From the NCBI RefSeq assembly GCF_041381155.1, contig NC_091137.1:15247765-15311764 (forward strand): DNA of 64,000 bases. The letters run 5' to 3'. A program made the translations under genes and the position numbers. Shown here in pieces: positions 4,866-63,659 of this stretch. Every line of letters begins with the position of its first letter. The first letter of the stretch is position 1. This DNA is from Argopecten irradians. Taxonomy: Eukaryota; Mollusca; Bivalvia; Pectinida; Pectinidae. Below the pieces are notes generated by a model. That model had not been told where the DNA came from, searched no databases, and saw nothing but the letters and a program-made list of their open reading frames with translations.

Positions 4866-6433
4866 CAAGAGGCCCAGAGGGCCTGTATCGCTCACCTGGT
4901 TTGTAATGCCAAGTAATGTTCTGTTTACAAGTTCATTGTTTCTTTTCTGAAGGAATTTTAATATTAACCTCTAAATCCCCTATTGGGCCCCACCCCTCCT
5001 GCCCCCAGGGGGTCAGAGCCAAAATTTATACAAGTTCTGTTCCCCTTCCCCCAAGGATGTTTATGGCCAAATTTGGTCACAATCCAAGCAAAACTCTAGG
5101 ACAAGTAGCGATTTATAGGATTTACCTCTATTTCCCCTATTGGGCCTCACCCGTTCTGCCCCGGGGGAGCCAGAGCCAAAATTTATACAAGTTCTGTCCC
5201 CCTTCCAAAAAGGATGTTTGTGGCCAAATTTGGTTACAAACCATGCAGAACTCTATGACAAGTAGCGATTTAAAGGATTTACCTCTATTTCCCCTATTGG
5301 GCCCCACCCCTCCTGCCCCAGAGGGTCAGAGCCAAAATTTATACTGGGGGTCAGAGCCAAAACTTATACAAGTTCTGTTCCCCTTCTCCCAAGGATGTTT
5401 GTAGCCAAATTTGGTTACAATTCATGTAGAACTCTATGACTAGTAGCGATTTCAAGGATATACCTCTATTTCCCCTATTGGGCCCCCGCCCCTCCTGCCC
5501 CCTGGGGACCAGAGCCAAAATTTATACAATTTCTGTTCCCCTTCCCCCAAGGAGGTTTGTGGCCAAATTTGGTTACAATCCATGCAGAACTCTAGGACAA
5601 GTAGCGATTTATAGGATTTACCTCTATTTCCCCTATTGGGCCCCGCCCCTCCTGCCCCAGGGGGTCAGAGCCAAACTTTATACAAGTTCTGTTCCCCTTC
5701 CCCAAGGATGTTTGTGGCCAAATTTGGTTACAATCCATGCAGAACTCCAGGACAAGTAGCGATTTATAGGATTTACCTCTATTTCCCCTATTGGGCCCGC
5801 GCCCCTCCTGCCCTCGGGGGGTCAGAGCCAAACTTTATACAAGTTCTGTTCCCCTTCTCCCAAAGATGTTTGTGGCCAAATTTTGGTTACAATCCATGCA
5901 GAACTCTAGGACAAGTAGCGGTTTATAGGATTTACCTCTATTTCCCCTATTGGGCCCCCGCCCCTCCTGCCCCCGGGGGGTCAGAGCCAAACTTTATACA
6001 AGTTCTGTTCCCCTTCCCCCAAGGATGTTTGTGGCCAAATTTGGTTACAAACCATGCAGAACTCTAGGACAAGTAGCGATTTATAGGATTTACCTCTATT
6101 TCCCCTATTGGGCCCCGCCCCTCCTGCCCCCGGGGGGTCAGAGCCAAACTTTATACAAGTTCTGTTCCCCTTCCCCCAAGGATGTTTGTGGCCAAATTTG
6201 GTTACATTCCATTCAGAGCTCTATGACAAGTAGCAATTTAAAGGATTTACCTCTATTACCCCTATTGCGCCCCGCCCCTCCTGCCCCCGGGGGGTCAGAG
6301 CCAAAATTTATACAAGTTCTGTTCTCCTACCCCCAAGGATGTTTATGGCTAATTTTGGTTACAATCCATGCAGAACTCTATGACTAGTAGCGATTTAAAG
6401 GAAATGTTGACGGACGGACGGGCCAGGTGAGCT
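4866..6433 (+). mobile_element. Composite TIR element with nine ~157-bp tandem units
   Basis: The left edge reads AAGAGGCCCAGAGGGCCTG followed by CGCTCACCTGG, and the right edge reads GGCCAGGTGAGCT. CTCACCTGG and CCAGGTGAG are therefore the inverted ends. Between them a unit of about 157 bp recurs about nine times, counted by CAAGTTCTGT-type cores at 5,031, 5,188, 5,370, 5,528, 5,683, 5,840, 5,999, 6,156 and 6,313. One unit has a 24-bp internal duplication near 5,345. A shorter copy of the same family is at 58.9 kb. The open frames crossing it repeat the same peptide and are not genes. The element begins about 130 bp upstream of the Tudor gene start codon, where that gene's promoter should be. 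Confidence 0.85.
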
Positions 6434-7500: not shown

Positions 7501-8479
7501 ATGGCTGCAGTGTTGGGTGCCGAACCGCGAGTCGGAGGGTTTAATTTTGAAAACTATGCAAGGCAAGTAATTTATTTCTGACTTAACGACAAGGAAACAT
7601 AAACCACTTGTAAAGCTAACACATCCCGTTAAAATTAAAGTATATTTCTACTTGGTTACATAATTTGATATGTTTTTGGCGAATGATCACACGATGACAA
7701 AGCAACATTATTCGATTCTCTCTGGGTTATTTCGCCGGTGAATCGCCCTCAATCTCATTTTATGCCGAAACTAACTACTGTTGTTGCGGTAAAGATATCA
7801 CCTTCTGACTGACTTTTTTGTCAGAAGTGTTATCTTTTCGGCTACAACATTAGATAGAGCGAAACATAATTTTGTTATTTCATCAGCACAAAATGTCGGT
7901 CAATATCAGCAGAGAAAATGTCAACATTAGATTCAAATGCGTCTACATGATTAAATAATTCGCTGAACAATCACTGGAAGAACCATGTCATGAAATTTCA
8001 ACCATTAACAGGTTGGGCACAACCCTGCATTTGGGTAAAAGTTACCCATTTGAGTAACAGTTACGAGGGTTGAAATATCCCTGATTCTCCCATACATAGC
8101 AGAAAAATGATGAAATTCCTCTTGGTTTCCAGCTTTTTCATTGCGCTATTATCACAGAAACGTCGTTATGCGTCAAAATTTATGAAGTCATCTACAATGT
8201 GCGCTGCATGTATTAACGACATCACGTTATTGTCTAGCGCGTGTGAGCTGTCTTACACCCCCCTGTGTAAGATAGAGATATCTTTTCCCTAGCAACCATA
8301 GGATATCCCTGTGAAGTATGGGAGAAAATGACACCCATGACGGTAATGTTCTTACCACCTCCATAACAAAAACCTCACTGGTAACTTATTCTCATTTCAG
8401 AAATATTTCTCTGGAGCAAGCAGGAATAAAACCTCCAAAAGCTTACAAAACAGGAACCACTAAGCGAGATCAAAAGTAG
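7501..8479 (+). CDS. PSMB7: Proteasome subunit beta type-7 (beta-2), first two exons only
   Basis: Exon 1 (7,501-7,562) encodes MAAVLGAEPRVGGFNFENYA and matches the start of PSMB7/PSMB10, whose hallmark is GGF-FEN. It ends AG followed by GCAAGT, a GC-AG class donor. Exon 2 begins at 8,401 after TTTCAG and continues in phase through the propeptide: NISLEQAGIKPPKAYKTGTT. In beta-2 the propeptide is cleaved before the TT of TGTTIAG and that first threonine is the catalytic nucleophile of the trypsin-like site. Here homology stops exactly at TT, followed by KRDQK and a TAG at 8,477. I find no later PSMB7 exon downstream. It could be a truncated 5' duplicate, a gene interrupted by an insertion or misassembly, or a functional gene with distant exons and an unusual donor. 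Identity of the fragment is fairly sure; function is not. Confidence 0.7.
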
Positions 8480-8559
8480 CCGCTCAATATTTGTGGAATT
8501 AAAAAATAGTCTTAGATGAAAGGCCTAACCATCTATAATCTAAACTAATTAAAGGTTTC

Positions 8560-8840
8560 CCTAAGCGGCGGTCCCTCGCTCCGCAAGCGATTTAATGCAG
8601 TCGCTCCAGCAGAATTCGATCCCGCTGGCAGCGAGATCATCCATTTTTTTTAGAGAAGCTCCGGTAGCGATCCCGCTCCGGCAGCGAGATCATCCGCGGA
8701 ATCCGGCAGCGATCCCGCGGCGGTCCCGCTCTCCGCAGCGATATGATCCCGCTGGCAGCGAGCTTCGGTAGCGATATGATACACTTCGCTCCGACAGCAT
8801 CGCTTTTCGGCATCGATTTCACCAAGCGATCTGTTGGTAG
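8560..8840. repeat. GC-rich island of degenerate AGCGATCCCGCT words
   Basis: In an otherwise AT-rich region these 280 bases are strongly GC-rich. They consist of short degenerate words such as GCAGCGAGATCATCC, GCGATCCCGC and CCGCTGGCAGCGAG on both strands. A second island of the same style is at 18.0 kb. Open frames through it are low-complexity and are not called. It may be a simple satellite or insertion debris; no function is visible. Confidence 0.5.
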
Positions 8841-8879
8841 ATATTGACATCGTTTCAGCTTTGACAAACATGCCGCGAT

Positions 8880-11630
8880 GATTACTTAGCATGACACAAT
8901 CTAAAACTAAAGGGGACGAGTATAGTTAGCTAACGAACTAAACCTTCTTCAACTTGCTCATCGGAAACTATGAAGAAATTGTTTTAAAATAGAATGATGT
9001 GTTAACACGTGCTTTGTGAATCAATCCTATTCAGTATTTAATAAAATATACTATTGATAATATATACAGTATATGTCCATGTGTTGTCTTTCCAAAATTT
9101 GACACTAATTCAAGATTTGATATATACTGATCTATTATTAGAATGTGTCGTATTGTTTCGTCGTTTTTTATCAAAATACCCCGTTTTTGGCATGATGACA
9201 TACAAATGGTTGTGAAGACAAATTCAAACAATATGCATATGGCCTGTAATTCAAATGTCTTTAACTAACTGGTATTTTTTACCATCTGAATGATGTTTTT
9301 ACGATATTGCCTCTTTTAGTTTATACTCAGAATATATACAGTAGATATTTTTTAACCAATTCCAATTAATGGTCAGATAATTCCTCTCAAAATCCTTATT
9401 TACTTTTACCATGCAACGTTATAGAATGCTTTGCTTCATGTAATTACATGTATACATGTAGTTTATTTATTATGTAAATTGTCTAAGTACGCCATCATTA
9501 GCTGGACATACCTAACGTTTGATGAAAATATTATTTGTATGAAGTGTTTTATACGATGCAAATTGTTTGACACTAAGATAAAAATAAAACAATTGACTGG
9601 ATGTTGTTACTTGTCCTCGATATCTTCACTGTGCAATATATATTTATCTGGAAAGACCTGAAATCGACCAGCGGGGAAACAAAATACGATGAATATGCCT
9701 GTTCAATGTAAAAATACCAACTTCGCATATTCCAGCCAAAACGGTAAGTGCCTGTCATTATATTCATTTTTTTCGATCCCTTCTTTACTAGTGCTGATAA
9801 TCATTTTTCAGAGTGTAGGACCGCCATCTTTGCTGTTACTAGCTAAAACGATGTACCATGAACCCTGTTTATTGGAGAATGGCATAGTGATATGTCATGT
9901 AAAGGAAAAATATTCTCAACTATCAAAAGAATAGTGCAACGATTTTTCACTTTGCAATTGTTCACGCTAAAATGAAGTGAGTACTCCTTTCAAGATCTAG
10001 ACGCGATCACTTGGAGTATCAGTACATTTTATTTTATTTGAGTGTCACATATCAAAATCACATAAAAACAACCGAGTTTTCATCAGAGTACTAGTACATA
10101 TGAAAATATTATGATAATGATATCCACACAAACTGACTTATGAGACACTAATTTGAAGTAAAAAAAAAAGGAAAAAACACACACATACACAATTATGTCA
10201 CACCGAAACGGGTAAAAGAAGTAAAACTGAAAATGAATTGACCGATCGCCATGTGTAATATAAACACGTCTCGTGCTCGCAAACGCACGTGTTTCTTTTC
10301 AATGTCGGAGCATACATCGTAGCACACACAATACAAAATGCAAAGTCATGATGCGACTTGACTGACAGCTGGCGATCTGTCAATTATATGAAGTTAAAAC
10401 ACATATTTTATAAGGTACATGTAATATTTACCTAGCATGTTTTGTATGGGCGGACTGTAAGTTATGATTATCATCAAGTTCAAAGAAATGAGGATTAAAA
10501 TTAAAAACACAATTATAAAGATCGCTTCTAAAATATCAGTTATTAGTTAACAGTTGTCGGACTCCTAAGATATCCGCCTTTTGGTATCAGAATATATATT
10601 GTGGTAACGAGACTTATTTGGTGCGTGACGTAATCGACCCGCAGCTCATCACTATCAATATTTGCATACAGCGCCCGACACGCCTACCTGTGATTTTCAA
10701 AACCCGTTTCATAACCATTATTGGTCAACTTACACTCATATACATATCATGATATACACACTACATGTATGTCGCATTCGGATGCATTATGCAAGAAAAA
10801 GACAAAACCCAGAAAAAATATCATTACTGTTTATTTATTTGTTCATTTATCTTAAGGTGTTTTAACTACTTGTTCGACGAAATTCGTCGTTCTAAGTAAG
10901 ATAATAAGAATTAATCATGAGGATGATTAAAATATACATGTATATATATAATTAGGTTTACGAAATTGTTGTGTCCCCTTGGAAATATAGGATGAGTAGC
11001 AACGTTTAATATTAAAATAATTTCAATTTTTACATGTTATGCGATTACCATTCTTTGTATAATTCTCATTATTAAAATGCGATACTTTGCACATTTACGT
11101 CCTCGTGCAGATACGGATCCAGATACGCCGGAGGAGACGCCATCGGGGATCGTTATTTTCAGCGTTCAAAATTAACGCCTGTCCATCTGCCCTTGACCGG
11201 CAATTTTATAGTCAGGTAGACAATTTGTATAATGTAGCTGGTCCTTTGACAGGCAACTTTTGGTCCAGATAGAAGATATAAAAAAACATAAATGGCAGTA
11301 GAATTGAAGAAAGGTTGAAGATCAAACTGTACAAAACAAATTTTGGTAATATTCTGGTTTTCGGCCAATTTTGTTAAGAGCCTACGATACTAATACGGAT
11401 ATGCAGATATATTTTGTTAGTAAAACTATTACTTTGCTAGTAATTATGTAAGCTATAGAGATGAATTGTAACTTTGTAAGGACCAGTAACTTTTAGGGTC
11501 AGCCGGTCCTTAGGACCAGCAGGAAAAAATTATTTAAGGGAGAACAATGGTTATTTTGCCGATTTGTTATCTGGAACGGTTTTTTTTTCTTATAAATAAA
11601 TGTAACCTGGTTATACTAGGCAATATATCG
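8880..11630. other. AT-rich stretch with no supported gene
   Basis: Only short open frames without recognisable domains occur. An ATG at 9,689 is followed by a short frame ending at a good donor (AACGGTAAGTG, about 9,740), but no partner exon could be placed. The stretch may be intronic or intergenic. Confidence 0.4.
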
Positions 11631-11639
11631 CTCGGCTGG

Positions 11640-11714
11640 AGAGAACTTCTTTTAGCTCGATCGGTTGAGCGTTTAGTAATCCAAGGTCCCGAGTTCGATC
11701 CCTGGCAGAGGCAG
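11640..11714 (+). other. tRNA-like sequence, probably the head of a SINE
   Basis: An A-box-like TAGCTCGATCGGTTGAGCG (about 11,653) is followed by a B-box-like GGTCCCGAGTTCGATCCC (about 11,684) and a 3' GGCAGAGGCA. The distance between the boxes is too short for a normal anticodon arm, so this is unlikely to be a functional tRNA. It fits a decayed tRNA-derived SINE promoter. Confidence 0.45.
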
Positions 11715-11719
11715 GTATT

Positions 11720-14700
11720 AAAATTTTGTCTTGAACTACAATTTGTCTTACCGTTTTCTTATATGCTTTTCAGTTAAAAATGGCAATCAATGAGGAACCA
11801 ACTGCGATGAACGACCTAAACCTGTACAATTTTACCTGGATACGGAGGCTGGCTGAAGATAGAGGATTATATATATTTAATGGGGATACAACTTTCGTTT
11901 AGATTTCTTACTTTTGCAATTTCTAAAGACAGCTGGAATAAGTAACACATAATTGTTATAATCATCTTACTGATTTTTTTATTTTTTTTTTCACTTCTGT
12001 ACTTCTCTCTCTCCGTTTTAGTGTACACGGAATGGTTTGATGTATAAAACTTGCAAAACGCACCATTGGATAAAATTTAGAATGGACAAAGTACGATTTC
12101 CATTACGGTATTAGAGATAATGCGACTTTTCTTAGAACACACCTGAAGCCCCAAGCTTTGAACCCCGACCTGTGACGTCATGACGGGATCGACTCTACAG
12201 ACTCTAAAGTAATAGCTATGTTCAAAATGTAATTACTTTTTGTGTCCATTATGATATATATTCATTAAAAATGAAATTATTTGAAAGTAGTAGCTCTATT
12301 CAAAATCTACTACAGGATGTATGCATTCTGATATACAATGTGTGTTTATTATTTAAAATACATATAATACAAAATATCAAGCGGTTTTTTCCCTTTACAT
12401 AAAGTGGGGTATCACATAAAGTACATACCTATAAAACTTGAAAAGTTTCATGAAACAGCCTATAGCCTCACCTGTAATTATCTCCTATTGTTCTGTCTTT
12501 CACACGTAGTCTCCATTGGCCAACAAAATACCTTACCTGTATACCTAAATATTCAGAATAATGGCTAAGTGTTGAACCTTATGCATTATGTTGCGATAAG
12601 TTGTAAACACTTAAACAAAATAAAGAATCTGAATCTGAACATCGATTTGTAAGGCACAAATACCTTGTACATGTCCGATACATGTTTAATATATTCTCAA
12701 TCACAGATATAGTTCGGAATACACTTGGAAATAGGGATTTATACCATACATATATTGATGTACCTATCGTAGATGAATTGCCATCTCTGCATAATTATAC
12801 ACAATAAAATGTTACATAATAAGTATATCCGCGGTGTTTAGAACTACATATACATGTACACGATTATTATATTGCTAATCACTTTGTCATTTAATTCTTG
12901 ACTATCTTTGTCATTTGGGCAGTTAATTCTAACTGTAAATTTGCGCGTTCTAATTCTATATAACAAGTTTTTGAGAACCGTCATATCACAAATATTTATA
13001 ATTATCAGGAGTGGTATTTTTCGACCAATTTGGTTTTGATGAAATAAATTCAGCCTTCATATAATACAGTACGAACGACTTATTGATATTTTCGCTCAAG
13101 TTTCATTCATTAATAATGTCTTTACTTTGAAAATAAAACATACACGGATCAGCAAAACAAAAAAAAAATGAGGCTGAAAATGTCAAATGTCTTATACCAA
13201 TAGCAGATATCAAGTATTGAAATCAGAATACTTCCGAATATAGCCAATGTCGTGCTTTAATCTCTATACACTCGTATACTTGCTGTAACTAAAAAACGCG
13301 TGGTCAACCCTGGCTAATTAGGGGGCTAACCAGATTATGTAAGAAGGGTGTTTAGTGACCTGTATCACGCTTTGTTGATTAGCACACGTCACGTGTTCAA
13401 AATATCAGTCCACAGGTAAGTTTATAGATGGACCATCATGTAATTGCCGTATAATGTCATATTCGTAAACAATTATAAGTCCTTGGTTTACAGTAAAAAT
13501 ATACCGTTCGTACATAACATATACAAATGTAACAAGTGTATCAAGCACTCACATGTATTTACTTCAGAAACACCCAATGTATGGCACTTCAGCATCCATG
13601 TACATGTACATGAAGATATATGTTTCTGTGTTACATGTATATGTATTTTTATACCAATAACTGCAAAATTATTTACATATGGCATGTCGAGCAAGAACAA
13701 TGCAAATGTAATGCACAATGTCAGGAATTTAACATTTCTGATAGTTGCTAGATATTTCCGGATATCCAATTCTTTAACCAATAATGATAATCTATATGAC
13801 CAAATAAACTGTACTGTGAAAACTGTTGAGGAGATTGTTTAAAAAGAAGAGAAACACGTTTTACAACTATAAAATGAATTGTGTATTATATAATTCAAAC
13901 TCGCAAGTTTTTTTTTTCTTTTTTTTTTTTTTTTTTAACCCCCCGCCCTAATTTTTTGTCCTATGATCTGCGTGTATTGAACAACGAAATACATTATATA
14001 CATATTTTGTTTCTTTTCGTTATGTTGAATTGGTTCTTGATTATACAGAAACATGTTCAAATGGATGATTAAATATGACCATTTTTTTCCTGAATTCTTC
14101 TCCTTTTAAATTACATAGTGAAAATTGAATATTTCTCGAAGTTTGATAATTAAGTAATTTGTTAAAACAGAGATTAGATTTCTAGTCAAAAAGATACCGA
14201 GCCGTGCATGGTTTTAAAGTTTACGCAAGGCAGAGATTAATGATAATTTCATTATTAAAATCTCTGCACAAGGTGATGCCTTTAGACAGCTTATACATGT
14301 GTATTTAGAGCCTACTGTATAGACCACTACAATCCGCAGGTGTCACAACACTTGACCATTAACCGACTTATTAACAACATAATTATGGGTAATTGGAAGT
14401 CGTGGGAAACATCCTGTAGCTTTCGCTGACCACAGGGGGTCCATCTCCATCCATACAGGTAAGAGTGACACGCGAGCTGATCCTCTGGTTGTACCTGGAA
14501 AAACAAAGTACATGGAAAGTGTCACTCAAACTGATACTACGACCAATCAAAACAATGCCCGCTCATCAGTCGGTGACTCTGTTGTCATGGCCTTGACTAT
14601 TATCCAGTTTTATATGTCAACACGCACGAAGAAAATAATTTTCAAGAATGAGTACCAGGTTTAGTTTTAAGTACTGCTAGTAACGACAGTGACCACTGTG

Positions 14701-16140
14701 CACACACACGGTCTACGTTAAAAAAGCTATGTTTTCAATCAAATGAAGTTGGTGATGGAAACTTAATTCCATAAGCAGATAAGCCGAGTTCTATATATTA
14801 ATCAAGGTTAATCACATTTTTACATTCGGTATATTACACCACGACAGAGACATACATAGTATACCTATCTAAAATCTCTTGCGAAAGGATAGACCATTTG
14901 ATTATTTACTCATGATTACATGATAAGAACTGTGAATACAACTCGTCGCTGTTTTCTGCCAGGTAAGGTAAGGTCACTTAATATCCGAGACATAAGAAAC
15001 ATATATTATTTTTCTTGAGAACATATATTGGTATAAATAGCTATCTAAAATCTCTATATGAAATAAAAACAATTTGATTGTAGTCGATTGATTGATATCA
15101 ATTCCACTGGGATTTACCAACCTACACTCGGTATACAAGGGAGTCCATACAGGGATAGTCACAGGTAGGTCTGATCAATTCCAACCAACCACAGGTAGGT
15201 CTGATCAACCAACCGTGAAATAACACACCCGTGTCAATGGTTGTCCCATGCCTTGTCCTGGGGCGTTGTAGTACAGGTGTGAAGGCTATGTTACATAATT
15301 ACACCGGACACCTGAGAATATGATCGTGAATGATTGAACAATTTAAAGTGCAACATTGGAGCGGTAGGAACTACCACGTGCACGCGGCCAGTTTATTTGG
15401 TTATTGTACGCAAAAAGCAAAGCTAGAATAAAACTAGAATAGTAAGTTTCGTATTCAATTTCGAGACCTCACATGAACCAAGCACTTAAAATCGTATACG
15501 TACTACATATGTATGCAGGGTGCTAGTTGCAGACCACATATTAATAGTTACAACATATATCTCAAGTTCCTTGTTCAACATTTATATTTGCATGTCGTTC
15601 TAAAGAGCCTGAATACATATGTAAGTTATGTTTGAATAGTTATTTATCGTTGAAAATGCCAACCAGAACCACATTACATATGGTATCGAGAATCCTAAAA
15701 TACTTAAAAAGTGTATGCTTAAAATATGATGAAATGTAACTATCAATTGACTATTTTGCATAGATCATAAAAGTGAATCTCAGAAAACATCTGACGAAAA
15801 AAATATTCAAAATACTAAACTTTTTGACTCTGAAAACTGAGACGAAATTCGAGATTTAGACACTGTATAATGCATATAGGCTGCCGTGCGCTTGGAACAG
15901 CCGTAAGGTGCTTAGTAAGCTTTTAATATGAACAACATGCGAAATCAATAGTAAGGAAAAATTTCTACTTCTCATTGTTTTGTTTAATCCAAACTGATTT
16001 CTGCTTAGAATGGATTTGTATCGCTTATTATTAAATGTAACCCTTATTCATGAATAGTCTGTTTCCTTAATTATCAAAGTATCAATTTATATTGCCCGCT
16101 CTGTGCATACTTTTTTGCATAGTATAAATATATACTATCT
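11720..16140. other. Long AT-rich non-coding stretch
   Basis: No gene is supported. Minor features are a T-rich tract near 13,910, ACATGTACATGTACAT-type palindromes near 13,590, and minus-strand exon-like fragments near 14,490 discussed among the rejected items. Confidence 0.4.
12560..12640 (+). mobile_element. Possible 3' tail of a LINE
   Basis: The stretch ends AATAAAGAATCTGAATCTGAA, the short GAATCT repeat seen at the 3' end of many CR1/RTE-like LINE copies. No reverse transcriptase frame is attached, so at most this is a heavily truncated copy. Confidence 0.35.
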
Positions 16141-16335
16141 GTATTAGGGGCCATTATATCATTTTATATTTATCTTGTACGTACAACTTAATAAATATAT
16201 ATATACGTACAAGAAAGTACATGTATCATGAACGTACAACTCAGTATCTATGGCTTGTACATGTACGTACAAGATAACACCTAATATATATATAAATGAA
16301 TAAGTATAAATAAAATGACATAGTGGCCCTAATAC
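16141..16335. mobile_element. 195-bp MITE-like element with TTGTACGTACAA palindromes
   Basis: The left end GTATTAGGGGCCATTATATC is the inverted counterpart of the right end, which read on the other strand is GTATTAGGGCCACTATGTC. The interior contains several CTTGTACGTACAAG-like palindromes. The bases after the right end, GCCGCCGT, also follow the related end at 18,975, so the family's true edge may include them. Confidence 0.6.
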
Positions 16336-18000
16336 GCCGCCGTGGGCTTTAGATGATACGTATATTTTAAAATTTAAAAGCATGTTTTCGTGATTTACTG
16401 AAAAAGTCCTTTCCTATCATTATAATACCATCAACATATTGGTGATGACTTACTACCTATATCTACACCCGTAGACCAATTCAAACAAATTTGCCTAATA
16501 ATCCATCCAATCTGTTTGTAATAAAGCTGTAATAAAATCGTTTGAATGTTTAAATTTTATGTATGTTCAGAAACTTCTACACATGATATGTTCAAAGGCC
16601 TATTGAACTCAGTTTCTGTCAGCTGTCAAACTAATGTCAAAACTTCTATTCTTCTGACCATAAACATATATCGACATTCTCAAAATGGTTTATTTATTCT
16701 AACACTGAAACACGATCGTAAGAGGTTTGGAACAATGTGATACTTGCGTCTATAGGAGAACTGTTGGTAATTATACGACAAAAGATGGGTAAGAGCTTCT
16801 GAGAAACTTTGAAATTACATGTATATCGCTGAAAATATCATCAGTTAAAACTAATGACGCAATATCAATTAACTATGCGATATTGTGTATACGTCATGTA
16901 CATAAATGTATATCTGGATAATAATGTCGGTCACAATGTCTTCCTTTCCCGATGATTTCAATATAACTGCGTTTCGAAATATATATTTCTGGTTCAATCC
17001 TATATACCCCGTGACTTCCGGTAGAGATAGACTATCAAAAGATTTAAAATACAAATGAAACTAGAAATTTTTGTTTTATGATTTAGACCTCGTAAGCCAG
17101 ACAGAAGTAACCAAATGATGTCAACGAGGTCAGTTTATTAATTCTGATCATGGAATCACTGCTTATTCGTGTTTGTGTCATTATAAAGATATAAAAAGCA
17201 AGACCATCAGCGTGTGAATGTCATTATGACACATGTATTCATCTGCTAAATTTTGTGGACAAAATTGTTAAAGGGTTAAAATCTAGATGCAGATAGTTGT
17301 GCATAGATCTATTTAGTTTTTATTAGAAAATATAAAGCGTACCAAGTAGTACACATGATTATTGATCATTGAGTAATTTCACCAACGTACGTTTTGGAAT
17401 CCATGTCAGATTTAAGACTATTTATATATGTTTTCCGAGTATTTTGTTCTGCTATATATTTGAAAATTATAGCTTGTTTTTAAAAAAAATGTCATTATCA
17501 ACAGGGACATGTGTAATCAAAACAACATAATCCTTGATCCCGGTATACGTTGGCAATGCAACTATACAAAGTACATGAAAGTCTCCGCGTTAACTTCACG
17601 TTGTTAAATACACTTACGTAATTGAAACGTACATGGTATGGATGTAAAGAGTAAAGGCTCTTTCATTCTTCCGGAATCGTTATTTTGTATAATAGATAAT
17701 ATGATTTCCCGATATTTCACTCTGTACTTGTATATGTCTGTTCCAAATAAATGTCACAATGACCTTATTCAACTACAAGATACTACAAAAGGAATTTGTA
17801 CTTACCGTGAACATTCAGCGTAATTCTAACATCTTCCTGTAAACAATTCATTTATGTGCACATATAGTCTTGTTGTCGATTCTTTTCCATTTTGTTAAAA
17901 TAGATTATGAATATGAAAAAAGAAAATGATATACATTGTATAAGACTTACCATGCCATGACTTTTCGAAACTGCTTAAATGTCGTACTAGTAACTGTTCC
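16336..18000. other. AT-rich non-coding stretch
   Basis: No exon, RNA gene or repeat that I can support was seen. Confidence 0.4.
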
Positions 18001-18265
18001 CGCTCCGAGACAGATATGATCGGCGGGCGAAATCCGCTCTGAGGGCGAGCGGTCTCACGCTCCATGAGCGGGCGAATCCGCTCTAGGAACGAGCAGCCGA
18101 ACTCGCTCTACGAGCGGGCGAACCCGCTCGTAGAGCGGGGAGGACAGCGGGCGGATCCGCTCTGTGAGCGATGGATCATCCTCCCGTCCCGCCGTCCAGC
18201 GATCGCCGCGATCCCCGCTCCAACTCTCGCCGCGATCCCGCTCAAATTCCAAGCGAAAGCTCGAG
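18000..18265. repeat. Second GC-rich island, made of GAGCGGGCGAATCCGCTC-like palindromes
   Basis: Short imperfect palindromes such as GAGCGGGCGAACCCGCTCG and GCGGGCGAATCCGCTC are strung together, followed by GCGATCGCCGCGATCCCCGC. Composition differs sharply from the AT-rich surroundings. It resembles the island at 8.6 kb in word usage (GCGATCCCGCT) but is not a simple copy. Open frames through it on both strands are low-complexity. Confidence 0.5.
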
Positions 18266-18769
18266 CGATTCAATACTACTATTCTGAAGTAAATAAATGC
18301 TCAAAGTTCCACATACTTTCAATAATAGGTAAACAAGACACAAGTTGAAGTATGTTAACTTTTAATACCTGAAGAGAAATTAACGAATTTGTTTGCTTCC
18401 TCTTTTTATTAGTTAAAACTTATCATTCATCCGGTGATGTATCTTAATCGCATTTTATCAGTAAAGTATCTTATCTATTAAAACAGAGCGAAAGAAACTA
18501 AGTGTCAGTCTGTCAAAATAAGGCAAGTGACTATAACAGTTCCACACTTTTAATCGCGGCAATTTCAAATTAGATGGGTGAAAAAGATATTGTCCTCATT
18601 AATATATACCTTTATATTTCTCAATATGTGTCAATATAAGTTAATAAAGCCCTGTGATAGTGCTTGAAGCAATGCAAAGTAGACCGACTATCTTTAATTA
18701 CGAAAAATATCATGCGGGTGACTCAATATCCTTACAAACCTGTTAATGGTGATATGTGTAATTACAAGT

Positions 18770-18985
18770 CATTCCATACAAGTAGTTAATATCATAAACT
18801 GATAGGTGTACATTGATGTAACTTCACTGTACAAGATAAAAAACTGATTAGTGTAACAAAGATACTTGTACGTACAAGATTACTATTGTACGTACAATGA
18901 TAAGTCACTATCCTGTACAAAGTTAGTTAATATCGTACACTGATAAATTAAATTATATAGTGGCCCTAATACGCCGCCGTATAGT
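18770..18985. mobile_element. Relative of the 16.1 kb MITE
   Basis: The right end, ATAGTGGCCCTAATACGCCG, matches the right end of the 16.1 kb element, and the interior again has CTTGTACGTACAAG and TTGTACGTACAA palindromes. The left end is not clear. Confidence 0.5.
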
Positions 18986-20279
18986 TATCACAATAAAGGC
19001 AATTATTTATTTGATTATCTAATTATTTGAATGTACATTTTAATTAGTTTTAAAATACCAATACTAAATTTACTTTAATGTTAATAATTCTGAATAAAAT
19101 GAAAAAATCTACTACTTTGTTTATTTATTACCAAGACATCTTTTGGTGTCATAGACACTGATAGTGTGTAACATTGTGAAGTATATATATCCATTACTGT
19201 TTTCTTTACAATATCCAACATTACATTATAGTGGGCATTACCGAATGCAATGCTAGCCAAAAATAACTGTATCTCCTTGTCCATACAGGTCGTTCTCCTG
19301 GAAACTGTAGCAAATAGGAAGTGTCAACATCAAATGAAAGTTTCTGAACATTTGCGTTGAATTTCCGTCTTATAATGATTTGTCACCTCTCTATCATATT
19401 CACTGATAGGTGTGGTATTGTGAATGATCACTATCTGTTGATATTCACATACAATCGTTGTGTGATATTCATAAATTTGTGTGATATTTCACATGATTTG
19501 ATTTGTCAACTTTTTAAATTGCAACCTTGTGATCATACACATGATCAGTGTAGTGTTTGTTCCTGTGTGATGTACTCAAGCACAGTGTAGGTCTTATTCT
19601 TAAATGAGATATTAACATTGTGCATTTATTGGAATCCATGCAGATTCTTCCAAAAGTATCTGTATACCTCACTTTGATAGTAGAATGTACGGTGCTGCCT
19701 GGAGTAAGCGATTCTGGTGATGCAGTTTGCTTGTCTACTTTCTGATTTAATACTGGTTCTATTCTTTAGATCAACATAAAACTTGTTAGATTACGATACT
19801 GATCAATCCGTGTATTGGCGCAACTACTGCATTAGTTAAGTCGTTCATCCTGTTTGCTGAAGAATTTGTGTTTGTTCATAGGCCGATTCCTTATTTCATT
19901 TTGAATCATGGAATCCTTTTCTTAGGTCTTCAGGCACCATACTCTGAAAGACCCATGCGTTGTGTAAGTCACTATCTTTGTATTGCGCGTAATAATATCA
20001 GTACACCTTGGTACGTTTTGCAAATGTATTTTGGCAATTAACTTCTTTCCTTGTCACGTTTTTACTTTGTATATCTTGGCTTATTTGTATGAATCCTGAA
20101 TCTGACTTCCATCAAGTTGTCTTTTGAGTTTGTAAATACACTTGTCTTGTTGTGGAGTTTTTGCCATATCATTAGTCTGTTGATGTAGCTGTTGTCTCGG
20201 TGGGTTGTTGACTGTTTGGGTTTCATTTTCTTGTGATAATCATCACTTCAGTATTGTTCTTCAGCACTAAGTTTTTTCC
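18986..20279. other. AT-rich non-coding stretch
   Basis: Nothing gene-like is supported. Its right part may belong to the retrotransposon fossil that follows. Confidence 0.35.
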
Positions 20280-21000
20280 TCTGTATCGTCCTGATAGGTG
20301 CTACCGGAAATAATTTGGCCTTCTTTTACAAATCATAATATGTTTTATCTAACACTGAGTATGTATTGAGAACAGACATCTTTGTTATCACTGCATCTTC
20401 GTTAGTTTAACCGTGTCTTTTGGTCCTTTTACATACGATGTTATAGGGTCCTACCCATTTTCTGTTAGTTTTGGTGCATCCACAAGGATTTGTGTGCAAT
20501 ATAAACCTCACTTTGTCTCCTTCCATAAACTCTGTAGGTTACATATTTGTTATATTGCTTTTTTGTACATATCTTGTGCAATCTGTATGTTTTCTCTCTT
20601 TTGCTACTAAATTTTCTAGCAATAACCTTTTTTCAGATGTTGTGACAGATGAACAAAATTTTTTGGGATGAGGTCTGAATCGATTGGCATCCGCATCTCC
20701 TGTCCAAATAGCACGTAGTCATGATGAATGCAATGTGGAAACTGTGTAGCTGGTGTCATTCGATATGACATCATGATGGCTGGTAAAACATCTGAAGCCA
20801 TGTATCTTGCTTATCGTTGGTTGACCATGAGGTTTATGGTATTTTCCCCATTTCTTTAGTTTGGAGGTCCATCAGGATATGGCTGTTCAGTTTTCGGGGT
20901 AATGAGCGTAGTATCGTGGTGACGCATAACACACCCTTCTGAAACCTCCGTGTTGGTCAACCCACTTGGTGAACTGTTTATTTGTACAAACGATGATTAA
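20280..21000 (-). mobile_element. Ty3/Gypsy-like retrotransposon fossil (integrase part of pol)
   Basis: On the minus strand a stretch of about 60 residues contains LPAIMMSYRMTPATQ and later LFGQEMRMPID, typical of the Ty3/Gypsy integrase core region. Flanking sequence on both sides still resembles neighbouring integrase regions, including a GD-V-like segment of the C-terminal part. The copy is broken, with several breaks. No LTRs, gag or reverse transcriptase were found. It looks old and inactive. Confidence 0.65.
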
Positions 21001-21679
21001 TGAAACGCCATAGCATTCCTCTTCATATAAATTTGTCCGTTATTTGTCCTGAAACAATAGATATTACAACTGTGAAGTGAACATATTACAGTATGGGAAA
21101 GTTGGGGTGCTATGGCCTTAACACTGTATTTAGGTCTAATTGCAAGGAAGGGTCACTCTCCACTCAATGATATCAACTTAACACTCATACACTCTCGGGT
21201 TCCACTCTATATCATTTATCCCATATGCTAAAATTAATTACTAAAATACTAAGTTATACTTTGATTGGCAATACAATTAATTAGTGGGCGGAGTTACACT
21301 AAAAATCCTACATTACAGTGATAATCTAACATACCCTGACAGTAAATGCCTATGGTCAACATCCATACAATAGTTTTACTTATTACAAATAAACCTGGCT
21401 GAGCAAGCTTAGTGTGCTTGTCACCTTTCGAATCCCTTTATCAAATGCCAAGACTTGTCACTGGTCAACTCGAACTAATGAACACAGAGCCCCTGTAATA
21501 ATAGTTATGCAAACTGCACTAATGTGACTGCCGAAGAAATGTTCCATTAGCCAATTTTATTTACTATCCATAGGACAATGGACCCGGCTAATTTTTAAAC
21601 ATGTATAATTCACTATGATTTCCATACCACCTATTCATTATGGTCATATAATATCATACACGATCCATCCCATGTTTAA

Positions 21680-22039
21680 AGATGTTCCACCGCCGACAAA
21701 CATGTTGATATTCATCAGTTGAACAATAATTAGTGTTTGATCATGTATATATTATGTCTAATAACACAAAATATAATATAAAATATTCTATTTCGCCTTT
21801 GGTGCATGCGCAATATAGTATTCCCTTCCATATAGGATATAGTGAACGGATTATTTTCGGGATGCAATTATTATTATTTTTTCATATTTTTAACTTAAAG
21901 TAAAATTAGAAGCTCAAACTTTTCAATGGTGTTAATGGCGTAAAGTAAGTAACTTTTGTAACTGAAGAAAAATACGAAATCGTCTGCTCCTGTTTTTGAT
22001 AGTGAAAAAATACCAGTTATCATCAGCGGTGGAGCATCT
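21680..22039. mobile_element. TTAA-flanked MITE, family 1, copy A
   Basis: Inverted ends AGATGTTCCACCGC and GCGGTGGAGCATCT are flanked on both sides by TTAA (21,676-21,679 and 22,040-22,043). The second copy is at 40,377-40,724. The TTAA target fits piggyBac- or Kolobok-type mobilisation. No transposase is present. Confidence 0.8.
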
Positions 22040-22880
22040 TTAAAAAAGTTCCTTACGGACGAAATCTATAAGAAAAAAAAAAACAATAATGACTGACTAG
22101 TGAGCGCTTTCGCCCCATTCACACGTTTTTTTGTTACCGAAGGGTTGTAAAAAAATGGCCCTGATGTTCATGCCTCAAGCTAATAAGGAGTTTTATTAGC
22201 CTCTATTAGTCCAATTGAATTTTTCTTAACTGATAGATAGAAACACTGTCAAATTGCACATAAAAATATAATCACATTGTACATGTATAATATATTTACT
22301 GTCGAAACAAATTACATCACAAAGGCAGCGATGTATTACTTCCTCTTTAAGTAGATAGCCTAGCTACCTGTGTATTTGTGAGTAATGAAGCGGCATGATT
22401 TATTCTGGGAGTGTAGCGCTTGTTATTATTGGTCGACGCATGTTGATCAACACGCCTATACGGTACTATGTCAGTCTTTTGAATTGCATTTAGTTTACAT
22501 ATCAACATGGACGATTTATGGACATTGAAAAGTATTGATCCTTGCCTTTTAACTTATAAAGGAGTTGTTAATGCGTTCCGTAACCAGTATAGGAACACTA
22601 AAAGTACCTTCAACCACGGGGAGATGAATGAAATGCAAAATACCAGATTGTATACAAACAGCTATAACTGATAGAGTGATCAGTTTTTTAATCGCCAGAA
22701 ACCACAATCCGTCATTAAAAAATACCAGTCCTTTCTGTTCCAATCCGGTCATTTGAGAACAGTAAGAAAGAAAACGTTTTTTTCATCCCCTGTGATTTTA
22801 AGCGACGACGTCCAACGTCAATGATCACTGTGACTAGCCAGCCCCTAAGAAAGTTTTTCAATTCGTCAAAATTATAAACG
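22040..22880. other. AT-rich stretch before the assembly gap
   Basis: It contains one short plus-strand frame from an ATG at 22,507 (54 codons, starting MDDLWTLKSID) that ends at a TGA at 22,669. It has no recognisable domain and an antisense frame overlaps it, so it is not called as a gene. Confidence 0.35.
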
Positions 22881-22890
22881 NNNNNNNNNN
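22881..22890. other. Assembly gap (10 N)
   Basis: Ten N characters mark a join of unknown true length. Upstream exons of the RAPGEF1-like gene could be missing here. Confidence 1.
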
Positions 22891-50962: not shown

Positions 50963-53900
50963 ATGTCGAAAGTGTATGTGGTACTGGGAGTTGACTCGGC
51001 TGTAGGGGCAGCTGTAGCCTTCTACCTGTCCAAAGTAGCAACAGTGAAAGGCGTTCCTCTTGGGAGTCCTAGAGGGAAAGGGGAGGTAGACCCTCCGCCG
51101 GGAGTGGCAGTACATCGATGTGCACCACATGATGTTGGTTCTATGGAACATATCTTAAGAGGATGTGATGGTTGTTTTGTATTTACGCTATCCGACTTTA
51201 GGAACGACCCCAGTAGTTTTATGGTGACCGAGGTAGAATACGGGAGGACAATAGCCACTGCTAGTAATAAGGCACGTGTTCCCCACGTGATCTACTGTAC
51301 AGAGCCTCACACAGGCGATATACAGGGAATCGGTGCTCGTCACATGATCGCGAAAGCCGAGACGGAACAATGTTTCAGAGTGGCTGACGTCCCCCTCACC
51401 CTCATCACCCTCCCCCGGAGGTACGAGGATACTCTCGACTACATGGCACCGGAAAAGGTCGGCAGAGATTTCGTCTTCGGTAAGCCAAAAGCGTAAATGG
51501 TCGGCAGGGATTTCGTGTTAGGTACAATAAAAGCGTAAATGGTCGGCAGGGATTTCGTGTTGGGTACAACCAAAGCGTAAATGGTCGGCAGGGATTTCGT
51601 GTTTCGGTACGTCAAAAGCGTAAATGGTCGGCAGAGATTTCGTGTTCGGTAAGTCAAAAGCGTAAATGGTCGGCAGGGATTTCGTGTTCTGTAAGTCAAA
51701 AGCGTAAATGGTCGGCAGGGATTTCGTGTTCGGTACGTCAAAAGCGTAAATGGTCGGCAGGGATTTCGTGTTCTGTAAGTCAAACCGTAAATAGTCGGCA
51801 GGGATTTTGTGTACGGAAAGTCATAAGCGTAAATGGTTGACAGAGATTTCGTGTACGGAAAGTCATAAGCATAAATGGTCGCCTGGGATTTTGTGTACGG
51901 AAAGTCATAAGCATAAATGGTCGACAGGGATTTTGTGTTCGGTAAGTCAAAAGCATAAATGGTCGGCAGGGATTTCGTGTACGGAAAGTCATAAGCGTAA
52001 ATGTTCGACAGAGATTTCGTGTACGGAAAGTCATAAGCGTAAACGGTCGGCTGGGATTTCGTGTACGGAAAGTCATAAGCGTAAATGGTCGGAATGGATT
52101 GATTTCGTGTTCGGTAAGTCAAAAGCGTAAATGGTCGACAGGAATTTCGTGTACGGAAAGTCATAAGCATAAATGGTCGGCAGGGATTTCGTGTTTAGTA
52201 AGTCAAAAGCGTAAATGGTCGACAGGGATTTCGTGTACGGTCGTATACGGATTGTCATAAGCGTAAATGGTCGACAGGGATTTCGTGTACGGAAAGTCAT
52301 AAGCGTAAATGCTCGACAGGGATTTCGTGTACGAGAAGTCATAAGCGTAAATGGTCGACAGGGATTTCTAGTTCGTAAAGTCATCAGCATAAATTATCGT
52401 AAAAGTTTTCGTGTTCGGAAAGCCATCAGGGCAGGGATTTCGTGTTCAGTAAGTCACCAGCATCGTCAAGGATTTCTTGTTTGACGTAAAATTTCATGTT
52501 GTTTCTAAGGTCTACGTTTCATAAAAGGAGTACCTGTAATTGTTGCGCCGACTGAATTCAACTCATAGAGGCGCTGAAACAAATGACTCTTTCTTGTTTA
52601 ATGTAATTTTACACATTTTGTCTTTATTTCAGAACTCCCGATGGACACCGAAATTCCCCTGAACATGATCAGCGTCCTGGATTTAGGGCCCATTATAGAG
52701 AAAATCTTCAATGACAGGGCCAAATTCACGGACAAACGTGGGAACCGTGGTCCGATTAGTCTGTGTGGCAGTAAGGTATCCCGCCAGACGTTCGCTCAGT
52801 GTTTCTCCTATAACATAAACGCTCTCAAGTTCTTCGACAAACCCGTAAGTAAAATGATTATCAAATAGTATGTTAGGGGCTACATAACCAAGGAATTTCA
52901 ATGAACATGAGTTTTACCAAACACAGCGTTCTGCTAAACGCACACGTCCCTACTATAAGAGAAGGGAAATGACCACAGGGACCTGGCACGAAAATTTTTA
53001 ACCAAACAGTATACATATATATATTTATTACATAATTTGTTTACACCAATCTATATATGAAGAAATATAATATTTTCAACTATTACACCGACCGTTCAAT
53101 AAAACCTTGTTATATTGCACGGTTCGAAGTTATATTGCACGCTTCCATGGAAACGTTATATTGCACGGTTCGAAATGTTATATTGCACGGCTTTAGGAAC
53201 ACCTCGCTGTTGTAGTCTCGAATCAAGCACGTCATGTAGACGTTTACTGTACCGAGTAAAGGACGGACACGATGAATGTATTAGATCAAAAGGCTGCAAG
53301 CAGGTCTAATAATGTGAAAACAGACAATAAGACATCCAAACCGGAGTTACAACGTGACGTACGTAGGCTGTACGTCAATCTTCAATAGGATATTAAGGTT
53401 TTTTCCGTACGATACGGTGTTGTGATTTTGTTAAGTGATTGTCGTATTCGTTTTATAAAAAAAAAAATATTCAACTGAAAAACTGGTGATTATGTAATAA
53501 AACAAATATTCCATGGTTACTGTGCCCTAGTTCATAATATTTACCCCTCGGTGATGGTAATCAACAAATGTTATATTGCACTCGGCCTTTGGCCTCGTGC
53601 AATTTAACATTTGTTGATTACCATCACCTCGGGTTAAATATTATGAACTAGAGCACAATAAGCCATGAAATATTTGTATAATATATTATAGTATCATAGA
53701 TACAATGATATGTATATATGTATACAGTTAGTTTAAAAAAATCGTGCCAGGTCCCTGTGGAAATGACGAAGAATCGTGTCTTGGACACGGGAAACGTAAA
53801 CGCCCTCATATGTGATTTTGCATCGCCGTAAATCATGTCAAGGACGTATATGAGAAGGATAAGTGGGCAAAGACAGCGCAGGCGCTTTTGTGTTTGTGCA

Positions 53901-58867: not shown

Positions 58868-59437
58868 CAAGAGGCCCAGAGGGCCTGTATCGCTCACCTG
58901 GTTTGTAATGCCTAGGAATGTTCTGAATACAAGTTCATTGTTTCTTTTCTGAATTCCCTTATTTGGCCCCACTCTTTCAGCTCCAGGGGGTCAAAGCCCA
59001 AATTTATACAAATTCTGTTAACCCCAAGGATGTTTCTAGGCCAAATTTGGTCACAATCCATGCAGAACTATATGACTATTAGCGATTTACAGGATTTACC
59101 TCTATTTCCCCTATTGGGCCCCGCCCCTCCTTCCCCCAGGGGGTCAGAGCCAAAATTTATACAAGTTCTGTTCCCCTTCTCCCAAGGATGTTTGTGGCCA
59201 AATTTGGTTACAATCCATGCAGAACTCTAGGACAAGTAGCATTTTATAGGATTCACCTTTATTTCCCCTATTGGGCCCCGCCCCTCCTGCCCCCGGGGGG
59301 TCAGAGCCAAAATTTATACAAGTTCTGTTCCCCTTCCCCCAAGGATGTTTGTGGCCAAATTTGGTTACAATCCATGCAGAACTCTATGACTAGTAGCGAT
59401 TTAAAGGAAATGTTGACGGACGGACCAGGTGAGCTAA
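58868..59437 (+). mobile_element. Composite TIR element, short copy of the 4.9 kb family
   Basis: The left edge ACAAGAGGCCCAGAGGGCCT with CTCACCTGG and the right edge CCAGGTGAGCTAACAAG match the 4,866-6,433 element. Only about three 157-bp units are present here against nine there, so copies differ by whole units. Confidence 0.85.
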
Positions 59438-60480: not shown

Positions 60481-60739
60481 TTGTCTTCCATTAGCAAAAT
60501 GCCCAAAATGCTATCCAAAGTGTGAGCACAGCTTTATATATGATATTTCTTTCTAAGTGAGTTTGTTATATTTAAAATTTATTGTAAAGGTGTATTCAAC
60601 TTATACATTATCGGTTGTTAAATGAACAAAACCTTGAACATAAAGCATATAAAATATGCAATGAGTAAAATTCTGGTCATGGAAAATACAAGATAAAAGG
60701 AAAGAAATCAAAATCTCTATCAAACCTGTTAAGTCTTTT

Positions 60740-60745
60740 TTTATT
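60740..60745 (-). promoter_or_regulatory. Candidate polyadenylation signal of the Schlafen-like gene
   Basis: TTTATT on the plus strand is AATAAA on the gene's strand, about 110 bp past its stop codon. Assigned by position. Confidence 0.4.
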
Positions 60746-60851: not shown

Positions 60852-63659
60852 CTATATTACTGACTTCAGCTGATCAAGTTCCATTGATAGTTGTTTGAAT
60901 TCCTCCATAAAAGCTTCCTCCTCTTCCAATATAATCAACTGTCTCATCTCCTGTTAATTAAACATCATAAGATCATCTCCTGTTAATTAAACATCATAAG
61001 ATCATCTCCTGTTAATTAAACATCATAAGATCATCTCCTGTTAATTAAACATCGTTAGATCATCTCCTGTTAATTAAACATCGTTAGATCATCTCCTGTT
61101 AATTAAACATCGTTAGATCATCTCCTGTTAATTAAACATCGTTAGATCATCTCCTGTTAATTAAACATCATAAGATCATCTCCTGTTAATTAAACATCAT
61201 AAGATCATCTCCTGTTAATTAAACATCGTTAGATCATCTCCTGTTAATTAAACATTGTAAGATCATCTCCTGTTAATTAAACATCATAAGATCATCTCCT
61301 GTTAATTAAACATCTTTAGATCATCTCCTGTTAATTAAACATGGTAAGATCATCTGTTAATAAAACATCATAAGATCAACTCCTGTTAATTAAACATCGT
61401 TAGATCATCTCCTGTTAATTAAATATCGTTAGATCATCTCCTGTTTATTAAACATTGTAAGATCATCTGTTAATTGAACATCGTAAGATCATCTCTTGTT
61501 TATTAAACATTGTTTGATCATCTCCTGTTAATTAAACATGGTAAGATCATCTCCTGTTAATTGAACATGGTAAGATCATCTCCTGTTAATTGAACATTGT
61601 AAGATCATCTCCTATTATTGAACATTGTAAAATCATTTCCTGTTAATTAACATTGTAAGATCATTTCCTGTTAATTAACATTGTAAGATCATCTCCTGTT
61701 AATTAAACATTATAAGAGGTATAAACTGTCTTTGTGAAACTAATGGCTATATTATTCTATTGTTGATTCTTCTGTTATAGCAATTGTCAGTGCATTGCCA
61801 AATCATTTGCTCTTTTGTTTTCATTTTGTCCCAAAATTTCAAACATGTGTAAGTACAAACCAATAAAAACTTATAACTTCTGACAGTACTTAGTATGGTC
61901 GGACACCAAAATGGCTGGCAAATGTGCAGTTTTGAGAAGTAGAACATGGAATCATACCAGAGCAGTGAGTTGAGACGTGTGTGGTCCAAAACGATAGAAA
62001 CATTCCCCATCTTTTAGTGTATGCATGATTCCATGAGACACAGGTTTAACAGCGACCTCTGCAAGATAGATATGTTTCTCAGCGGACAATTCATACTAAG
62101 ATTAATATCGTAAAAAACCCAAAATCCATAAAGGCCCCTGGTCAACCATTTGGATCTGTGATCAGTCCTAAATTAGATAAAAACAATTGTAAGAGACAAG
62201 TGAAATGAGACTTTTCACTAAACAGTTCTATCTGAGAAAGTACAGTATTGGGGAACTTTAACTGACTTCAATCATAACATTGACATGTAGGATCAAGATA
62301 TAACATCGTTGAGAAAGACGTTTTCAACATTTTCTTAAATAGCTGTAAATATCAAGAGCTGGCAAACTGATAGTAAGTACCAGGTTTGGATAAAGATGCA
62401 TAAAATTGAAATTGAAAAAAAAAAAGAAAGAAATCTCCCCCTACTCACCAAATTAAAACTGTAAAATGCACTTGCCCATTATATACAAGTGCTGACTAAA
62501 CCCGCAAAAATATACCGATAGTTAAACATTAAAAAATATTTTCCTATTCCCATGGATTTGCTACAATAGTAAGACAGATTTGAGTGTATGAAAACATTCG
62601 TTCATTCCCAGTATTACATGAAGATAAGTTTACTTACCAGCAACAAAGCGGTCTTTGATGGCTACGAGAGTGTTAGTATGTTCATCGTGCTCCACGACAG
62701 GTGTATATATAACATCAAACATGGAGTGGAGAACACACGGGGAAATTTTATCTGACATCATCCGGTCTACGCCAATACGGAACTCATCGCGATCATCTCG
62801 ATTCATTTCCACACCTTGAACCGTACTAGAAATCCCGAAGTAGATCTTCCCTCCTTTCCCTGAGCAAACACAAACATGGATACATGTCATACCATTACAA
62901 AGTCCTTTCATACTACAAAATTAATAAATTTTGCCAAAGACACGCCAGTTTAAAATGGTGCAGAAAAGCAAGAGCACAAAAAAACATCCACCTATGTACA
63001 ATCATCACCAAATAACTGTCCATGTGAGACACCTTAACAACTTAGCCACTACCAAGATTTTAAATGATGCTTTTATTTCTTGAATGGTAAATGATAGCCT
63101 ACCACTGTTAAGGAGCCCACAGACATGCTTGGCGATGACAGAAGACGACACTTTGAAGATGGATTTGTTTGGTCTTAGCTCATGTGTAGTATCATTCTCA
63201 AACTCCACCTCAGAACCTTAAACATACAAACAAATAATAACACTCAACTAATAACAAATGTCATAATCATCATTGGCCTGAATTAATAGATCAACTTTTT
63301 CAGCCAGTTTTAAAGAAATAATGTGTCCAACATGAGATGAAATACAACTAGGGATGATTATGTATTAGTCTTAAGTTTTAAAATACTATCTCTTTGAAGC
63401 AAAAAAAAAAAAAAATTCTAATTGTAATTCTAGTTTTGCTTTCAATAAAGAAATACGACTTGTTGTGTAACGATTCCATATATGGAAAAAACATGTAAAG
63501 TAAATGTTTCCCATAAACAATACATCTCTATAATTACATATGACCACATTGATAAGGTAGAGATCTGATTTATAAGCTTACCCAATATGAAGGAATTGTT
63601 GGTTGTTTGTCCATAGTAATGTGTGGCGTCAATGGTTGTGACAGGCCTGGTAATGTCAT
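60852..63659 (-). CDS. Schlafen-like AlbA_2-domain protein, last five exons
   Basis: Minus-strand exons 63,659-63,582, 63,216-63,103, 62,859-62,638, 62,058-61,958 and 60,950-60,852 join in phases 1, 1, 1 and 0, giving just over 200 C-terminal residues and a TAG stop. The AlbA_2 (Schlafen-type) nucleic-acid-binding domain is recognisable: VIAKHVCGLLNSGKGGKIYF, then GISSTVQGVEMNRDDRDEFR, with the family's LNS-GG-I-FGI pattern, then VLHSMFDVIYTPVVE and DGECFYRFG. The last exon adds an acidic helix (ILEEEEAFMEEFKQLSMELD). Vertebrate Schlafens act in growth control and antiviral tRNA cleavage; for the invertebrate relatives the role is not known to me. The 5' exons lie beyond the window or in its last 340 bases. 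The final intron holds a 29-bp array. Confidence 0.8.
60943..61718 (-). repeat. 29-bp minisatellite built from the last 3' splice site of the Schlafen-like gene
   Basis: On the gene's strand the unit is TTTAATTAACAGGAGATGAT followed by CTTATGATG, repeated about 27 times. The real junction is TTAATTAACAG joined to GAGATGAGACAG, so every unit carries the acceptor and the first seven bases of the exon. Most units preserve AACAGGAGATGA exactly. Variants in the spacer (CATAAG, CGTTAG, TTGTAAG) come in runs, showing block-wise amplification. Confidence 0.95.

Follow-up and report, generated by a model that had tools for sequence, protein, structure and literature searches.

The window analysed here, 64,000 nucleotides of Argopecten irradians DNA (assembly GCF_041381155.1, contig NC_091137.1, positions 15,247,765 to 15,311,764 of the forward strand), carries on its minus strand a gene that can be classed, from its Pfam match, as SLFN/AlbA_2-like (positions without a prefix are those of the window). 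Its five identified exons are bordered by AG and GT and together read as a single open frame of 204 residues: an upstream exon (63582-63659, DITRPVTTIDATHYYGQTTNNSFIL), two exons of the AlbA_2 domain (63103-63216, GSEVEFENDTTHELRPNKS...LLNSG, and 62638-62859, GKGGKIYFGISSTVQGV...), a penultimate exon with the end of that domain (61958-62058, ...GECFYRFGPHTSQLTAL) and a last exon, the coding part of which lies at 60855-60950 (EMRQLIILEEEEAFMEEFKQLSMELDQLKSVI). Exons 5′ of 63582-63659 were looked for and none was located; the gene model is incomplete. The five joined exons match AlbA_2 (PF04326) with 38.8 bits (gathering cut-off 25.3) from position 5 to position 117 of the 118 in the profile, the match covering residues 30-169 of 204 and stopping before the last exon. 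The latter encodes 32 residues after the AlbA_2 domain, up to a TAG stop at 60852-60854 (minus strand), and no Pfam domain covers it. Purines account for 64% of its bases (99 nt scored), GARGA motifs occur some 25-50 nt from its start, and downstream of it lie a candidate poly(A) signal (AATAAA, 60740-60745, minus strand) and a further AATAAA at 60578-60583. A PDB search with the protein gave nothing convincing (best E 0.094; SLFN11, 0.29). The last intron (60951-61957, minus strand, 1007 nt) begins at the phase 0 donor CTG|GTATGA, and about three quarters of it are taken up by a tandem array.

This array is a 29-bp repeat at 60944-61717 on the minus strand (TRF: period 29, 27.0 copies, 91% matches, score 1177), which was also split into units, searched for acceptors and counted column by column. 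With head-to-tail units in the 10-100 bp range, it is a minisatellite (VNTR). Each unit combines 22 nt of the intron 3′ end (TCTTATGATGTTTAATTAACAG) with the exon bases GAGATGA (7 nt). The junction at the end of the array reads, on the minus strand, ...TTAATTAACAG|GAGATGA|GACAGTTG, so that the array stops 7 nt within the ORF-bearing last exon. The original prediction had described about 27 copies of a duplicated 3′ splice site with the first seven exon bases, ending on the final exon, and the TRF count, the 22 + 7 nt split and the running on of the last unit into the exon bear it out. The left flank of the outermost unit is CTCTTATAATGTTTAATTAACAG, which would fit a single original 29-bp duplication across the junction. 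In the 845.8-Mb genome searched (1508 contigs), the motif TTAATTAACAGGAGATGATC, with at most one mismatch, occurs nowhere except in this array and in a partner copy. An older paralogue was sought as the source of the array: neither the final pair of exons (searched to E 10) nor the main AlbA_2 exon (to E 0.1) matched anything but the array locus and its partner. The genome holds four other AlbA_2 hits, two of them above the cut-off; those on C11 and C12 were read as ORFs only, and the C15 locus matches the AlbA_2 exon weakly (E 0.009) and has no homologous last exon. The ORF of the C15 AlbA_2 exon looks RRM-like too, by eye, and two very long arrays lie downstream of it (C15:4002125-4016207; a 41-bp unit repeated 165 times and a 74-bp unit repeated 94 times).

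The intron part of each unit consists of a branch-point-like CTTAT, CTTAC or CTAAC followed by ...TTAATTAACAG. The AG is kept in 27/27 units of this copy and in 18/18 of the second, and a yUnAy motif occurs 12-24 nt upstream of it in 25/27 and 17/18 units, respectively. Both elements of the U2-type 3′ splice site pattern are thus widespread in the 27-unit array (27/27 for AG, 25/27 for yUnAy), in agreement with the earlier proposal that each unit is a potential acceptor. The putative branch A, which is a sequence match only, occupies an invariant column in all 45 aligned units of the two copies; its neighbours vary (T/A 31/14 at the n position, C/T/A 29/15/1 at the y position). The acceptor finder, which required AACAG, AACAAG or AATAG, gave 27 and 18 sites, and a count of TGATC/TGATT anchors, for which no AG was demanded, gave 26 and 17, to which the final unit is added in each copy. 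The two counts agree, and therefore every unit has an AG. Since the units copy one another, the fact that all or nearly all of them keep AG and yUnAy does not count as independent evidence. Upstream of the AG, ATGTTTAATTAACAG offers only a short T run, and by inspection a polypyrimidine tract is almost absent. Given this weakness and the shared ancestry of the units, the pattern denotes a capacity to act as acceptor rather than use, and more than one AG could serve: an outer acceptor, being transcribed earlier, might prevail. Similarity among units is higher near the exon, nearest-neighbour divergence rising with distance from the exon (rho 0.53, p 0.004 in the 27-unit copy; 0.56, p 0.015 in the 18-unit copy). 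This gradient suggests recent growth of the array on its exon side.

The same scaffold bears the partner copy, 67.7 kb distant, which contains 18 units as against 27, with an identical last exon; copy number is therefore variable, whether between alleles or between paralogues. The second copy reproduces four of the five exons exactly, among them the last exon together with its acceptor. Across the segments of the five exons, 617 bases align with 0 substitutions; 17 substitutions occur in the 1504 bases measured in introns and 3′ flank outside the array, and the array itself has 10, plus 261 gap columns. The remaining exon (63103-63216) differs in the second copy by four small indels (+1, +1, -1, +2; net +3 bases), which create an early in-frame stop as assembled; either real damage or faulty sequencing of this copy could account for them. 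The surrounding duplication is extensive: C4:15205082-15256226 and C4:15270655-15332591 are collinear, their aligned pieces adding up to 53.7 kb that are 96.8% identical, with many indels, the right-hand member standing about 65 kb from its match upstream. The stretch with the SLFN-like gene begins at 22891, the first base after a 10-N assembly gap (22881-22890). Two alleles, one of them a second haplotype kept in the assembly, are probably represented, to judge from the alignment. True tandem paralogues, the second of them perhaps decaying, are a rather improbable alternative. They would account for the presence of both copies on one scaffold, for the four indels concentrated in one exon, and for the 14.4 kb before the gap (8463-22880), for which no good partner was found up to C4:15389999. 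However, the right-hand copy starts at the very base that follows the gap, 96.8% identity with many indels over 53.7 kb is what would be seen between alleles in a highly polymorphic animal, and three of the four exon indels involve one base each, within or next to a run of A, which is also compatible with read errors.

The consequences of using an inner acceptor can be read from the frame. With exon 61958-62058 ending in phase 0 and the acceptor placed alike in the units (one unit being off by one base), translation would usually continue as GAG ATG ATC TTA TGA or GAG ATG ATC TAA. When translation was carried out from every acceptor, a stop appeared within 1-17 codons after each inner one (26/26 in this copy, 17/17 in the second). 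The commonest short tails of the 27-unit copy are EMI (8) and EMIL (6); some differ in sequence (EMI, EMIL, EMILQC...), and none reads the last exon. Tested as tandem consensus, both of the most frequent unit types contain stops in every reading frame, and retention of the last intron leads to an immediate stop (CTG GTA TGA). It had been proposed that inner acceptors would cycle the reading frame of the last 32 codons and so diversify the C-terminal tail, an idea that draws on the indivisibility of 29 by three and on the AG in each unit. This part of the original prediction fails: the stops precede the 32-codon tail after every inner acceptor, in 26 of 26 and 17 of 17 cases, and cycling of the C-terminal frame, ruled out by the translations in both copies, retains next to no probability. 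Because stops follow every inner acceptor, the 32-residue tail after AlbA_2 would be lost wherever one was used. The predicted products are accordingly expected to be a full-length or a truncated protein, and not a family of shifted tails. Stops after inner acceptors sit in the last exon, so that the usual junction-based decay would be unlikely.

This uniformity of outcome could be given a functional meaning. The array might serve as an acceptor decoy, its copy number setting the ratio of full-length to truncated protein; the resemblance of the unit to a near-complete 3′ splice site, the difference between 27 and 18 copies and the same kind of truncated product from all inner choices would be in keeping with such a role. 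Nevertheless, selection on copy number shows no sign and a neutral account covers the same facts, which makes this explanation unlikely.

The SLFN-like array has counterparts in its neighbourhood. The 214 kb that were examined contain 52 merged arrays, which make up 24% of the sequence (243 per Mb), and at this density placement on a junction is in itself less surprising. Merging alleles and split rows by hand left, in the C4 stretch, 16 distinct arrays that have a unit length of 12-80 bp and four or more copies; five of them lie across a splice junction, three at a donor and two at an acceptor. One donor array (51453-52422, plus strand, 42-bp unit, about 23 copies) covers the end of an exon and the start of an intron in an NmrA-like gene. 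The exon ends at 51479 (TTCG|GTAAGC), and the intron (51480-52632) is supported by the Pfam NmrA score, which rises to 37.2 bits when the flanking exons, scoring 15.6 and 13.7 bits apart, are joined. There are 22.8 copies in the window and 23.8 in the partner at C4:15233367-15234375. CABIT had been considered as a candidate for this gene at 51 kb and was ruled out, since the joined exons match NmrA. The three other junction arrays lie in a gene which we take to be RAPGEF1/C3G from its PPPLPPKKR motif and its resemblance to human C3G (C4:15185328-15193248); Pfam returned nothing above cut-off for its exons. They comprise a donor array of 23-bp units after ...PPPKPPLPKDQAVIHR (C4:15185328-15187074), a donor array of 35-bp units after ...PPPLPPKKRH (C4:15187976-15189480) and an acceptor array of about 109 32-bp units before the exon ...QAYMQTFGNYTQPSA (C4:15189709-15193248). 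The intron C4:15188002-15193234 has arrays at both ends and is filled from both sides by different units. The polarity seen in the SLFN-like array recurs in the NmrA-like array and is absent in the three RAPGEF1-like ones. Against a yardstick of 135 codons (99th percentile at random positions), the open runs into the NmrA-like array (partner copy) and the 35-bp array are long (183 and 295 codons), and those into the 23-bp and 32-bp arrays (73 and 87 codons) do not stand out. Visual inspection of the remaining C4 arrays, for one of them without its left flank, revealed no exon; untranslated exons are possible there. A 157-bp repeat family, perhaps the tandem core of a dispersed element by its resemblance, also occurs in tandem at several places, for example at 4963-6402 and 58983-59408.

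Numbers of this kind bear on the simplest alternative, that an ordinary minisatellite overlaps the junction by chance, its inner acceptors never being used and its copy number having no effect. Tandem arrays make up 24% of the 214 kb, 243 per Mb, and inner units are intronic, which would make growth cheap. On the other hand, 4 of the 15 arrays besides the SLFN-like one span a junction as against 0.14-0.42 expected (P 1e-5 to 1e-3), an estimate of random placement that is rough, since 40-120 junctions and 150 kb are assumptions. A sample from outside C4, chosen for GTAAGT only, adds to this. It consists of the first six periodic-GTAAGT arrays listed on C1, with their left flanks; an isolated irregular match at C1:2203238 was skipped. 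Four of these six begin at the donor of a coding exon, which also argues against chance. The exon of L041 belongs to enolase (Pfam 5.3e-10), and its PDB alignment to residues 175-204 of beta-enolase reaches the last whole codon of the exon; that of L043 belongs to ALG3 (Pfam 2e-12), and a PDB search with it gave no match. L044 and L046 follow open exons with acceptors, for which no Pfam family scored above cut-off, and at L042 and L045 no clear exon was found.

Genome-wide counts were obtained by requiring a hexamer three times with 12-40 nt between occurrences on both strands; such matches count units rather than arrays, and large arrays dominate them. Periodic GTAAGT (74,516) exceeds five controls of the same composition 1.2-2.7-fold (TGAATG 27,130, GATGTA 56,508, ATGTAG 53,059, GTATGA 59,917, AGTATG 51,489). 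In the non-array background of the examined sequence GTAAGT is not unusually common (122 vs. 153 for TGAATG). The longer donor AGGTAAGT (AG|GTAAGT) gives 5,571 matches as against 795 backward, 3,434 for GTAGATGA and 2,946 for AGTAGATG. For periodic GTGAGT there is no real excess genome-wide (34,034 vs. 31,083 backward), and for periodic TTTCAG there is none (16,421 vs. 20,734 backward). A genome-wide bias toward the main donor is therefore suggested by a hexamer test that is partly positive and not decisive, and a general bias toward splice sites is not established. The partial result is in favor of chance overlap, the junction counts on C4 and C1 speak against it, and chance overlap appears doubtful.

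Splice-site minisatellites have precedents. IFI6 is interferon-induced, and Schlafens are interferon-linked too. A splice-donor minisatellite in human IFI6 (6-16/G1P3) was reportedly described by Turri, Cuin and Porter in 1995 (NAR 23:1854). That paper is among the references of PMC2572611 and PMC4526556, and the latter states that two downstream repeat units act as splice donors. The likeness lies in a minisatellite at an exon border with a splice site in each unit, the SLFN-like array having 27 acceptors in 27 units and abutting its exon. The difference is that the donor is multiplied in IFI6 and the acceptor in the SLFN-like array; multiplication of donors as in IFI6 is seen in the three neighbouring C4 arrays. 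Moreover, alternative use of units is reported for IFI6, whereas in the SLFN-like array the predicted use would truncate the protein. Boundary repeats have also been studied in human duplicated genes, the authors reportedly being De Grassi and Ciccarelli (2009). According to that study, genes in human segmental duplications carry minisatellites averaging 30 bp on exon-intron boundaries, which vary in copy number and can alter splicing, with 27 intron modifications (PMC2812944). As described there, these repeats have about 4 copies, lie in recently duplicated genes and are interpreted as new introns formed from exonic repeats; the Argopecten arrays, in contrast, have tens of copies, a unit cut across the splice site and hosts that are unrelated genes. 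Several close acceptors at one exon are known as NAGNAG or tandem splice sites (PMC3250501, PMC2423196). NAGNAG sites, however, number 2 at a spacing of 3 nt, as against 27 copies spaced by 29 nt. Introns derived from tandem arrays were reportedly described by Zhuo et al. (2007, PNAS) and are said to share with the present case tandem splice-site-bearing copies inside a spliced-out stretch. The SLFN-like intron differs in having its array at the 3′ end only, with the donor GTATGA outside it, which indicates that this intron was not made by the array. A literature search for a genome-wide class of junction-spanning minisatellites, with most subscription journals and bioRxiv outside its coverage, turned up no title reporting one.

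Taken together, the evidence favors, with a probability of about 0.72, a 29-bp junction segment that was tandemly duplicated and grew into a minisatellite of variable length, one of a recurrent class. Initially, 29 bp straddling the last 3′ splice junction of the SLFN/AlbA_2-like gene would have been duplicated in tandem, and minisatellite growth would then have led to 27 units in one copy and 18 in the other. Such growth may have been tolerated since the unit that adjoins the exon would continue to yield the original mRNA as the main product, the choice of the last acceptor perhaps being aided by the purine-rich last exon. Use of an inner acceptor, or retention of the intron, would give one kind of short isoform in which AlbA_2 is kept and the 32-residue tail is lost. 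The SLFN-like array would belong to a recurrent class of splice-junction minisatellites, on donor and acceptor sides, in this genome. Their apparent excess at junctions could arise if the duplicating event were commoner there, or if an exon-side copy kept by selection re-seeded decaying arrays.

A wider claim, that minisatellites are preferentially born or kept at splice junctions and form a genome-wide class with units cut across donors or acceptors, driven by junction-linked mutation or exon-side renewal, is tentative and stands at slightly less than even odds. If it held, there might be perhaps a thousand such arrays (a guess from the periodic GTAAGT excess), splice sites would be multiplied tens of times while introns lengthened from their ends, and hundreds of genes would possess ladders of surplus splice sites that vary in length. 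Single cases of splice-site minisatellites are known, such as human IFI6, and recurrence on the present scale would be new: the SLFN-like, NmrA-like, RAPGEF1-like (three times), enolase and ALG3 genes are independent genes with junction-cut arrays. Two questions become testable in this way, namely whether minisatellites are seeded by events at exon-intron borders and how the spliceosome chooses one site among dozens of near-identical ones 23-42 nt apart. If both are expressed, the copies with 27 and 18 acceptor units would constitute a natural dosage experiment.
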